Assembly (NCBI RefSeq): GCF_007000325.2
Contig: NZ_CP117267.1
Coordinates: 62,001-126,000, forward strand
Direction of reading: 5' to 3'
Length of the DNA: 64,000 bases
DNA from: Rhizobium rhododendri
GTDB taxonomy: Bacteria > Pseudomonadota > Alphaproteobacteria > Rhizobiales > Rhizobiaceae
Shown: positions 1,908 to 34,418 of the stretch, in pieces
Numbering within the stretch: position 1 is the stretch's first letter
Layout: each line of letters opens with the position of its first letter
Notes under the pieces: generated by a model
The model's input: only the letters and a program-made list of their open reading frames with translations
What the model was told of the DNA's origin: nothing
Database searches by the model: none
Position numbers and translations under genes: made by a program

Positions 1908-1982
1908 GGAATGCGCGAAAGTCTCAATCGCGTCGTTCCAACCCGGTTGACACGCAATCACCCGTTCGCTTATCACAGCGAA

Positions 1983-2077
1983 CGGTAATGGATTCTGCCG
2001 GACCAGAAAAGGTCGAACCGCTTCCCGGATGAAGCTGATGACTCCTACTCAACGCGCTTATGCGAAGGAGTAGAGTC
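1983..2077 (+). promoter_or_regulatory. Fluoride riboswitch (crcB motif) with SD-sequestering expression platform
   Basis: Seen: a hairpin CGGTA/TGCCG (1983-1987/1996-2000) with an ATGGATTC loop, an extra GACC/GGTC hairpin (2001-2014), the AACCGCTTC...GAAGC stem (2016-2035), and the conserved end TGATGACTCCTAC (2036-2048). This is the order of the crcB aptamer. The loop base GGA (1990-1992) can pair with TCC (2043-2045) as the pseudoknot, with fewer pairs than the usual five. Downstream, GACT-C-CTACTC (2040-2050) can pair with GAGTAGAGTC (2068-2077) in ten base pairs with one bulge, hiding the SD GGAG (2067-2070). Fluoride binding would keep the 3' strand in the aptamer and free the SD. The context, a CLC-F antiporter, supports the call. 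Confidence 0.85.
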
Positions 2078-2134
2078 GTGCCTGATATCCAGAACCAATC
2101 CTCACATGTAGTGCCTGCCGGAGTGACCGCGTGA
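2078..2134 (+). CDS. 18-codon leader ORF overlapping the fluoride antiporter start
   Basis: A GTG at 2078 lies seven bases after the strong SD GAAGGAG (2064-2070) and opens an 18-codon frame reading [18 protein letters not shown], ending in TGA at 2132-2134. The stop overlaps the GTG (2131) and ATG (2134) starts of the antiporter as GTGATG. The good SD is about 60 bases from the antiporter, whose own frame has no start codon further upstream, so the SD can only serve this ORF. This suggests translational coupling: fluoride frees the SD, ribosomes read the leader and terminate at the antiporter start. The peptide has no recognised motif. Whether it is made is untested. Confidence 0.5.
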
Positions 2135-3543
2135 TGGTTTTCTCCGATATTCTTGGCATACGCCTGCAGCTAGCTCGCAGCCTTTTGAAATGGATGGCTG
2201 TTGTCACGCCGATGGCGATCACAATCGGGTCTCTGGTCGCGCTCTTTCTTTGGAGCCTAGACCGGGCGACCGAGGCACGGTTTGCCTATCCATGGCTGAT
2301 CTATGCTCTGCCGGTTGCGGGTTTCGCGATGGTTTTCGCGTATGGTCGCTTCGGCGTTTCTGCCGAGGGTGGAAATAACCTCATCGTCGACCAGATCCAC
2401 GAGCCAGGCGGCGGGGTGCCGTTGCGGATGACGCCTTTCATCCTCGTCTCCACCGTTCTCACGCACTTGGTTGGCGGCTCCGCCGGTCGCGAAGGCACCG
2501 CAGTCCAGATGGGGGGTAGCCTTGCCAGCGCCTTCGGCAGGGCATTCCGGCTGGACCGAGCCGATGTCCGGATCCTGCTGATGGCAGGTATTGCGGCCGG
2601 GTTCGGAGCTGTCTTCGGCACGCCGATTGCCGGAGCCGTCTTCGCGCTGGAGGTCTTGACGATAGGACGGATGCAGTACGAGGCACTGCTGCCAGCACTG
2701 ATGGCGTCGGTCATCGCCGATTGGACATGCCAGGCCTGGGGGATCACGCATGTCCGCTACGCAATTTCCTATCTGTCGGCTTTGGGGACCACGGGTAATT
2801 TCCATCTCGAGCCGCTTCTTCTCCTCAAAGCCGTTGCGGCGAGCGCGGCCTTCGGCATTGTTGCGCATCTCTTCGCTGACGCCTCCCATCGCCTCTCCTC
2901 TCTCCTGAAGCGGCTGATACCCTATGCGCCGCTGCGCCCGGTGCTGGCAGGCCTGGTCATCCTGGGCTTGGTGCACCTGCTTGGCACGCGGGAATACCTT
3001 GGCCTCGGCGTCTGGTCTCCTGATCACGACGACGCGACCATTCTCGGCTTTTTCCGCCCGGATCACATCGACAGCTGGAGTTGGCTCTGGAAAATGGTCT
3101 TCACGATCATAACGTTGAGCGCCGGTTTCAAGGGCGGTGAAGTCACCCCGCTATTTTTCATCGGCGCAGCGTTGGGAAATGCGCTGGCAGGTCTGATGGG
3201 CGCTCCCGTTGACCTGTTCGCCGCTTTGGGCTTCGTTGCCGTATTTGCTGGAGCGACGAACACGCCGCTTGCCTGCATGATCATGGGCATCGAGCTCTTT
3301 GGCGCAACCCATGCTGTTTACATCGCGATTGCCTGCTTCGTCGCCTATCTCTGCAGCGGCCATTCGAGCATCTATCTGTCCCAGCGGATTGCCATCCCTA
3401 AAACCTCGGCCGGCAGCCACATTCCTCCGGGCACGGCGGTTCGGCATCTTCGCGACCTCCAAAAGCGCGCTCCGGTCGGGATGAACGGCGATTCATTACA
3501 TATCCGCGCCTCCGATCATTCAGCCAGGAAGGACCAGCCATGA
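2131..3543 (+). CDS. CLC-F type fluoride/proton antiporter
   Basis: A 470-residue polytopic membrane protein of the CLC family. The chloride-type GSGIP motif is replaced by GGNNLI (residues 80-85), and the gating-glutamate motif reads GREGT (119-123, Glu121) rather than GREGP. Both changes mark the CLC-F clade, which exports fluoride in exchange for protons. A later [16 protein letters not shown] stretch matches the second half of the CLC repeat. A fluoride riboswitch lies directly upstream, and DUF190 overlaps the 3' end by four bases (ATGA at 3540). The start is GTG 2131 with a weak CGGAG, or ATG 2134; both overlap the leader ORF stop. Older annotation would call it a voltage-gated chloride channel. 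Confidence 0.9.
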
Positions 3544-3935
3544 CCCGGCATTCCATCTCACAGAAAGAAATCGGTATGGTGCGCATCTACATGAAGCCTC
3601 GCGAAAAGGTGCCTGGCAAAAGCGGCTGGCTTCGTGGATCCCTGCTCTATCGCGAACTGATCCTGCAGGCGAAGGCTGCGGGCATTCTGAACGCCGTCGC
3701 TCATTCCACCCACTTCGGATACAGCAATGGCGGCAGGGTGGCAGACGACGGATTTGAGATATCCAACCCCGATCTCACCATGTGCGTCGAGCTTATCGGA
3801 GATCGTCACGAACTTGAAAATTTCTGTCGGACACATGGAGGCATGTTGAAGGGCAAAGTCATCATCTACAAGCACATCGAGCACTGGGATATCACTGGGC
3901 ACAGCGTCATCGTTGAAGATGTCCTCAAACCGTAA
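3540..3935 (+). CDS. DUF190 domain protein, partner gene of the fluoride antiporter
   Basis: A 131-residue soluble protein of the DUF190 family, with the typical block [10 protein letters not shown] followed by [14 protein letters not shown] and [16 protein letters not shown]. The fold is related to the PII-like ferredoxin fold, but no biochemical role is established. The ATG overlaps the antiporter stop codon by four bases, so both are translated from one mRNA under the fluoride riboswitch. DUF190 genes often accompany crcB or CLC-F genes, which suggests a role in fluoride resistance; this is context only. A terminator-like hairpin follows at 4028. Confidence 0.85.
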
Positions 3936-21278: not shown

Positions 21279-21506
21279 ATTATCTCACGAAACCCATGGA
21301 CTTACGGTCGCGCGAGCATTTGCCCGTCGCTCTGTCAATATCCCAAACGCTCACTTTCTCGGCTGCTAATTAGGCGAATTGTCGCAGAGGCATGCTCTAA
21401 TGCAGGCGCTGGCTCAATAAGCCTGACTTACTCATGCATCAAACGCATTGCTGCAATGCAATGTCAGTCATTTTAAAAAGCGGGCAGTGACTGTATCTAT
21501 TGTTTC

Positions 21507-21625
21507 GAAGGCAGCGCACTCCTCCTCCCGGCGCTTCCTTCTTCGATCGGCAGCACTCCTCCTCCCAGTTGCCGATCTCTATTAAGAGCCCGACGCATCC
21601 TCCTCCCGCGTCGGGCTCTTTAAGT
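21507..21625 (+). ncRNA. Trans-acting sRNA with three CCUCCUCCC loops (alpha-r14 / suhB 'cuckoo' family)
   Basis: Three consecutive hairpins each expose the anti-Shine-Dalgarno sequence CTCCTCCC in the loop: 21507-21541 (11-position stem with one mismatch), 21545-21577 (GATCGGCA/TGCCGATC) and 21584-21620 (AAGAGCCCGACGC/GCGTCGGGCTCTT, 13 perfect pairs, then TTAAG), the last serving as terminator. This is the architecture of the alphaproteobacterial alpha-r14/suhB RNA family, related in motif to CcsR RNAs of Rhodobacter. The loops can pair with SDs of target mRNAs. The TSS is inferred at about 21500-21507; the promoter is not clear. Confidence 0.85.
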
Positions 21626-33392: not shown

Positions 33393-34418
33393 TCAGCCCC
33401 AGCACTTCGCAGTGCCTTCCTTGACGTCGATCGACGGTACGCCGTTAACCGGCTTGTCCGTGACGAGCGAGACGCCAGTGTCGAAGAATGCCTTGCCAGG
33501 TGTCGGCTTCGGCTTTTCGCCCGTGTCGGCGAACTTCTTGATGGCTTCGACGCCCATGGCTGCCATCATCAGCGGGTACTGCTGCGATGTCGCTCCGATG
33601 ACGCCTTCCTTGACGGACTTGACGCCCGGGCAACCGCCGTCGACGGAGACGATCAGCACGTCTTTTTCCATGCCGACAGCCTTCAGTGCCTGGTAGGCGC
33701 CGACTGCAGCAGGCTCGTTGATCGTGTGGATGACGTTGATCCCTGGATCCTTCTGGAGAAGGTTTTCCATGGCTTTGCGGCCGCCTTCTTCATTGCCGTT
33801 GGTCACGTCGTGACCGACGATGCGCGGATCGGTTTCGTCGCCGATCTTGTTCGGGTCCTTGGGATCGATGCCGAAGCCAATCATGAAGCCCTGGTCGCGC
33901 AGGACGTCGACGGAAGGCTGCGATGGCGTCAGGTCGAGGAAGCCGACCTTTGCGGTCTTGGCCTTGTCGCCCATGGTGCCCTTGGCCCATTCGCCGACGA
34001 GCTTGCCGGCAAGCAGGTTGTCGGTGGCAAAGGTTGCGTCGGCAGCATCGGCTGGCTCAAGCGGAGTGTCGAGCGCGATGACAACGAGCCCGGCGTCGCG
34101 AGCCTTCTTGACCGAGGAAACGATGCCCTTGGTGTCCGATGCAGTGATCAGGATGCCCTTTGCGCCGCTGGCAATGCAGCTCTCGATGGCCGCAACCTGG
34201 CTTTCGCTGTCGCCGTCGATCTTGCCGGCATAAGCCTTCAGGGTAACGCCGAGTTCCTTGGCCTTGGCCGTGGCGCCTTCCTTCATCTTGACGAAGAACG
34301 GATTGGTGTCGGTCTTGGTGATGAGGCAGACAGTCGTGTCGGCGGCATTTGCCGGCATGGCGAAGACGACGCCAAGAGCAAGTCCGGCGAGCGCTGCAGT
34401 GATAACGGATTTCTTCAT
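33393..34418 (-). CDS. frcB: Fructose ABC transporter, periplasmic binding protein
   Basis: A 341-residue protein of the RbsB/XylF-type sugar-binding family. The signal peptide is [20 protein letters not shown] with cleavage near ANA-ADT. The mature part begins [20 protein letters not shown], the standard start of the first lobe; [20 protein letters not shown] and VSVDGGCPG follow. It is the first gene of frcBCAK, served by a TTGACA-17-TTTAAA promoter about 120 bases upstream and divergent from the regulator frcR. Confidence 0.95.

Follow-up and report, generated by a model that had tools for sequence, protein, structure and literature searches.

At this Rhizobium rhododendri locus a fluoride ON riboswitch probably controls the CLC-F antiporter gene indirectly: translation of a short relay open reading frame (ORF) is its immediate target, and the antiporter itself is reached via a stop/start overlap. 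All positions refer to the window, i.e. the whole 64,000-nucleotide stretch that was analysed.

Layout of the locus and the SD-masking hairpin

A covariance search with cmscan placed a fluoride riboswitch (RF01734) at 1975–2054 on the plus strand, at 44.5 bits (E 4.4e-9), well clear of the gathering score of 34. This bears out the fluoride aptamer claimed in a preliminary description of the DNA, and RF01734 also scored over its cut-off in 14 of 14 orthologous loci from the same genus. The antiporter belongs to PF00654 (E 2.5e-70), and its best solved relative is 6d0j, a CLC-type fluoride/proton antiporter (E 4.5e-64, 220.4 bits); the first other CLC among solved structures, 3nd0, follows at E 4.3e-7 and 32.5 bits. 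Judged by these matches, the gene is a CLC-F antiporter downstream of RF01734. The features of the locus are as follows.

1975..2054, plus strand: aptamer of the fluoride riboswitch RF01734 (cmscan, full model 1–64/64)
2040..2050, plus strand: 5' arm of the masking helix, which is also the aptamer 3' strand, GACTCCTACTC, with C2045 bulged
2055..2064, plus strand: inner stem-loop of the masking hairpin (CGC/GCG; predicted fold)
2064..2070, plus strand: GAAGGAG, the SD that serves the leader ORF, some of its bases paired within the masking hairpin (sequence, alignment of relatives)
2068..2077, plus strand: 3' arm of the masking helix, GAGTAGAGTC (fold, alignment)
2078..2134, plus strand: leader (relay) ORF, GTG 2078–2080, 18 codons, TGA 2132–2134
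2120..2123, plus strand: antiporter SD, GGAG, within the leader ORF (sequence)
2131..2136, plus strand: stop/start overlap GTGATG, comprising antiporter GTG 2131–2133 or ATG 2134–2136 and leader TGA 2132–2134
2131..3543, plus strand: CLC-F fluoride/proton antiporter gene (PF00654, 6d0j match)
3540..3935, plus strand: DUF190 protein gene, its ATG overlapping the antiporter TGA as ATGA (PF02641, E 3.4e-6)

The 18-codon GTG leader of the preliminary description, with its TGA overlapping the antiporter GTG/ATG, was recovered, as was the ten-pair hairpin (2040–2050 with 2068–2077) over the leader SD, in which GACTC 2040–2044 and TACTC 2046–2050 pair with GAGTAGAGTC around the bulged C2045. The antiporter frame had been said to have no start near the masked SD; it is closed by a TGA at 2083–2085, so the masked SD cannot start the antiporter directly. 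GAAGGAG lies where it had been placed but, contrary to what had been stated, is not the only usable SD: GGAG at 2120–2123, which had been overlooked, is a plausible SD for the antiporter, with spacings of 7 nt to GTG 2131 and 10 nt to ATG 2134.

The identical stretch of another locus (L031) folds, in prediction, into the same ten-pair hairpin. Conservation of the hairpin was assessed in 38 distinct sequences, a set that omits 18 loci that are in frame, non-rhizobial or odd (e.g. L062, L080, L082); L081, L088 and L109, which are without the 5' motif, were also dropped, and duplicates were merged. The outer helix was paired in 97.1% of 379 cells, as compared with 33–52% when slid by 1–3 columns, and the complementarity of the aptamer strand to the controlled SD/start region is kept across the 38 platforms. 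Two-sided covariation on the outer helix was not found in these 38 sequences, in which the aptamer arm is nearly invariant. The inner stem is predicted in 38/38 sequences with differing letters. Its mean is -5.6 kcal/mol, whereas shuffles gave -1.8 (sd 0.25) and none of 200 was as low.

In the fluoride riboswitch class the aptamer 3' strand serves as an anti-SD, and the bound aptamer holds this strand in a pseudoknot. We mimicked the bound state by folding with the aptamer strand withheld. When the whole leader was folded, mean access of the SD went from 0.36 to 0.35 (higher in 25/49 loci) and that of the start codon from 0.27 to 0.41 (higher in 33/49). A local fold, shorter, with a narrower SD core and chosen after the whole-leader result was known, raised SD-core and start access each from 0.24 to 0.43, in 39/47 loci. 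We infer release of the leader SD by fluoride from the known behaviour of the class and the conserved complementarity, not from folding energies. No T-run of an intrinsic terminator lies 3' of the hairpin in the window; across the relatives, four Ts occur within the first 15 nt of the leader in 11/54 loci. Elsewhere in the window, 21501–21623 strongly matches the alphaproteobacterial sRNA ar14 (108.4 bits) and has repeated CUCCUCC loops.

Occurrence of the leader among relatives

Sixty-one near genomes yielded a close antiporter in 14 apart from the window's own, and a class-wide antiporter search at E <= 1e-60 found one in 4/385 genomes including the window's own, too few to add lineages. The main set came from a scan of genome contigs, from which the best 80 of 95 loci encoding a relative were taken; one of them, L031 from Rhizobium sp. 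L51/94, is identical in sequence to the window, and there is some duplication of the near-genome set. A single definition of aptamer end, SD and ATG/GTG start was applied to all 80. By this rule the aptamer pattern was present in 75 loci and absent from L056, L087, L094, L096 and L102. An SD with ATG/GTG followed the aptamer in 70/80, including every Rhizobiaceae locus with an aptamer; the loci with an aptamer and no such start were L083, L085, L093, L097 and L110, all of which except L093 have an in-frame start after the aptamer under a looser rule.

The ORF directly after the masked SD has a stop overlapping the antiporter start in 54/80 loci. Of the 70 loci with both aptamer and start, five (L062, L092, L098, L099, L109) have a leader that shares the antiporter's frame, seven, all Komagataeibacter, have a start codon with a stop directly behind it, and four belong to none of these groups (L054, L080, L082, L095); the leader stop of L054 lies 23 nt past the CLC start. 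The 50 distinct overlap-selected leaders measure 14–29 codons, start with GTG (32) or ATG (18) and stop with TGA (47) or TAA (3), and their junctions read ATGA in 20, CTGATG in 18, GTGATG in 6, ATGATG in 3, CTAATG in 2 and GTAATG in 1. The constant frame, the openness of the leader and the restriction to ATG/GTG starts are in part products of the selection rule itself and do not count as evidence here.

As a control, an identical rule (an SD-led ORF of 12–50 codons whose end falls on an ATG/GTG in frame with the gene) was applied to all genes, with L085 and L095 left unscored. It found such an ORF at 55/78 CLC genes, as compared with 10/231 flanking genes of the same loci and 1/42 other genes of the window. 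An uneven rule, which allowed more start choices for CLC, had given 48/61 CLC genes against 2/229 flanking genes; the enrichment at CLC genes falls under the identical rule but stands. Most of the 54 coupled loci are related, so they are not independent of one another. The single positive among the 42 other window genes lies on the minus strand at about 33393–34418.

Copies on plasmids, new to the analysis, were examined by the rule used for the 80 loci, in 15 regions from 52 matching records. The leader overlapped the antiporter in 11/13 Rhizobiaceae loci (6 new leaders, 5 identical to earlier ones) and was in frame in the other two (L163, L164), as it was in both Sphingomonadaceae loci. L164 lacks an 11-nt segment of L161 that contains the stop and the ATG of the antiporter, and its leader continues in frame into the antiporter. 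The preliminary description had made its reading depend on homologues sharing the leader frame, and overlap was found in 54/80 contig loci, in 11/13 plasmid loci of Rhizobiaceae and, under the identical rule, at 55/78 CLC genes. It had also called a leader between aptamer and gene an uncommon design; most Rhizobiaceae loci seen have one, which is thus not a peculiarity of this genome. The relay from riboswitch through leader to antiporter stands as the best reading. The leader ORF is listed in none of the plasmid gene tables, which are incomplete (L163 is without annotation). The annotated antiporter start of L165 lies 69 nt downstream of the overlap ATG, hiding the leader, and that of L164, where the overlap ATG is absent, lies inside the fused frame, so that the leader is likewise hidden. 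The plasmid copies of the unit comprise L160–L172, several of the plasmids being typed conjugative, and near-identical antiporters occur across Rhizobiaceae genera (L046, L047, L049, L053, L091); this distribution suggests that the riboswitch-relay-antiporter unit moves horizontally.

The loci were placed on a quick CLC protein tree of 79 rows, from which the short L099 was left out and in which L083, L085, L097 and L110 were labelled in-frame by hand. The Rhizobiaceae/Phyllobacteriaceae clade is coupled in 49/51 rows, the exceptions being L062 (in frame) and L054. The coupled form is also seen in an Ochrobactrum pair (2/2) and in Azospirillaceae (3/4). In Nitrospirillum, L088 and L089 are coupled and L092 is in frame. 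On this tree the coupled form occupies three places, with the number of origins unsure given the many long branches. In seven Komagataeibacter loci (L101, L103–L108) the masked SD is followed in 7/7 by GTG and an immediate stop (TAG in six, TAA in one), and in 6/7 an in-frame antiporter ATG lies 81–83 nt after that stop; the start-stop is possibly a minimal ORF in the relay position.

A model of aptamer, platform and start matched 15/297 Rhizobiaceae genomes. Nine of its 15 loci are antiporters with the overlap, including the window, one is an antiporter whose leader frame extends far into the CLC (L158), and five lie before crcB-like genes. Of the latter, L154 joins its leader to crcB by ATGA, the leader stop of L155 lies 12 nt before the crcB start, and in L156 and L157 the stop begins inside crcB, at a distance of 10 and 8 nt, respectively, from the first base of its start; no leader was found in L159, a weak match of 37.9 bits. 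The CrcB proteins of L154, L156 and L157 belong to PF02537, while L155 and L159 were assigned by eye. The four crcB relays (L154–L157) belong to two genera, and since the same cassette precedes crcB in both, it is not bound to one gene. We lean towards the view that aptamer, masked SD and start form a portable fluoride-gated ribosome loader, joined to CLC-F or CrcB genes by a sequence-neutral relay. Selection would then act only on the start, openness and stop position of the relay, the switch and the N-terminus of the target could evolve separately, and loss of the relay stop would give an N-terminal extension with control kept.

One further Rhizobiaceae genome (G189) has ten fluoride riboswitch matches on contigs C17 and C13. 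Nine of them, one under the cut-off, cluster on one contig in a span of about 30 kb, which may be an island for fluoride or organofluorine.

Proposed mechanism and alternative explanations

The steps of fluoride release, leader translation and dependence of the antiporter on the leader, which we infer, would run as follows. Without fluoride, the aptamer 3' strand GACTCC would pair with the SD/start region and mask the SD and start of the leader; with fluoride, this strand would be held in the aptamer pseudoknot and the leader SD freed. Ribosomes would then translate the leader, terminate at the TGA overlapping the antiporter start and reinitiate there, aided by the local SD within the leader, while the leader peptide itself would be disposable. 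The ATGA overlap may hand ribosomes on to DUF190 in this genome. A second coupled step from antiporter to DUF190, also proposed in the preliminary description, is plausible here from the ATGA by which the two ORFs overlap, but it looks genome-specific and is not conserved as such: of the 80 loci, 24 have DUF190 as a C-terminal domain of the antiporter, joined to it in frame, 7 (including the window's sequence) have it as a separate ORF, and in 49 it was not found. The loci that do not fit the relay are L054, L080, L082, L095, L158 and the seven of Komagataeibacter.

The main rival, which we consider unlikely, is independent initiation: the leader is translated, the antiporter is made mostly from its own SD (GGAG 2120–2123), the riboswitch acts mainly via mRNA stability or Rho, and the overlap is only compact packing. 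With an SD to itself within the leader, the antiporter could be started independently, and an SD-like tract lies 7–10 nt before the antiporter start in 47/49 distinct loci, some of these tracts being weak, e.g. CGGG. Nor is this SD hidden by structure in excess of shuffles. It is unpaired at 0.21, as compared with 0.18 for shuffles, and lower than they are in 17/47 loci, so structure gives no support for obligate coupling. A second hairpin hiding the antiporter SD, which would make coupling obligate, was considered and rejected as a general feature: the window sequence is suggestive (in L031 the SD is unpaired at 0.00 against 0.25 for shuffles), but there is no general effect across the 47 loci. 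What argues against packing is that it is uncommon for the neighbouring genes, at 10/231 compared with 55/78 for CLC, and that the overlap is retained while the peptide drifts. The loci with leader and antiporter in one frame, moreover, most simply begin at the riboswitch SD, though other in-frame starts exist.

A second alternative is that the leader encodes a functional or stalling peptide, acting as an attenuator or second sensor. The leader does resemble such elements in being a short 5'-leader ORF, with an interior that is 67% pyrimidine and peptides rich in S, P, L, F and I. We compared 114 pairs of related leaders, which are not independent of one another, with the start codon and the final eight codons trimmed off. 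Differences were spread evenly over the three codon positions (589/534/548). In the leader frame pN/pS came to 0.77; the two alternative frames gave 0.70 and 0.82. No conserved peptide was detected in these 114 pairs, pN/pS being about equal across the three frames, and leader length varies from 14 to 29 codons. A functional peptide was rejected on the near-equal pN/pS and the even codon-position differences, and we regard it as very improbable; what the leaders keep is the start, an open frame and a well-placed stop. Programmed frameshifting that joins leader and antiporter into one protein appears just as improbable. It draws on the in-frame forms of relatives (L062, L092, L109, L163, L164) and on a Mycobacterium tuberculosis precedent in which, in the available part of the report, a fusion product is a minor outcome (PMC11260477), but the feature common to the loci is a stop overlapping the start codon. 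That the ORF arose by chance, with the riboswitch controlling the antiporter and the leader playing no role, is scarcely credible. Eighteen codons is short, dinucleotide-shuffled leader interiors remain open 58% of the time, and a like ORF occurs at 10/231 flanking genes; set against this are the 55/78 CLC genes, the three places in the tree and the 11/13 further plasmid loci. Within the limits set by relatedness, these comparative data contradict chance.

Comparison with known systems

The locus resembles translational fluoride riboswitches for crcB or eriC/CLC-F in having the same aptamer, RF01734, and the same kinds of target. In the usual translational fluoride riboswitch the controlled SD lies directly before the transporter gene; here, by contrast, that SD belongs to a short ORF, to which the transporter is linked by overlap. 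The fetched loci also include direct versions that are in frame (L083, L109). A riboswitch is usually taken to control the gene immediately downstream. Here what it controls directly is probably a relay ORF missing from the annotation, both in most of the Rhizobiaceae loci seen and at two further places in the antiporter tree. The pattern provides a comparative signature for relay ORFs, in which start, open frame and stop position are kept and the peptide is not, and hints that a similar arrangement may lie behind 'misplaced' SDs at other riboswitches. The natural variants (coupled, in-frame and crcB) make coupling testable.

A relay leader with a fluoride riboswitch was not reported among the matches listed in the open-licence literature, and the available parts of PMC5756330, PMC9495176, PMC13273304 and PMC7266159 make no mention of such a leader. 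The leader is like the coupling short ORFs described in the available part of a review (PMC12548453), which only bring ribosomes to the next gene. It differs from them in being, by prediction, ligand-gated by a riboswitch, a word that does not occur in the main text of that review as available (PMC12548453).

The closest system is ppe2 of M. tuberculosis, besides which no other precedent combining riboswitch, uORF and overlap was recognised among the matches listed in the open-licence literature. According to the available part of the report, a B12 riboswitch there controls a uORF, uPPE2, which shares an AUGA overlap with PPE2, and production of PPE2 relies on uPPE2, mainly by termination-reinitiation, as judged from reporter fusions and tagged proteins (PMC11260477). 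The two designs share a riboswitch that masks the SD of the uORF and an out-of-frame uORF whose stop overlaps the gene start. They differ in that ppe2 is a B12 OFF switch, whereas the rhizobial locus is predicted to be a fluoride ON switch. The region before ppe2 is said, in the same part of that report, to be without an obvious SD, whereas the rhizobial leader contains the antiporter SD (PMC11260477). The ppe2 design, moreover, was described from one operon, while the putative fluoride relay recurs in dozens of loci, where its peptide drifts, and serves other genes than ppe2. The riboswitch-uORF relay design is thus known at least once, from what is available of PMC11260477. What is new is its predicted use in a fluoride ON switch, its occurrence across many species while the peptide evolves neutrally, and its pairing with two exporter families.
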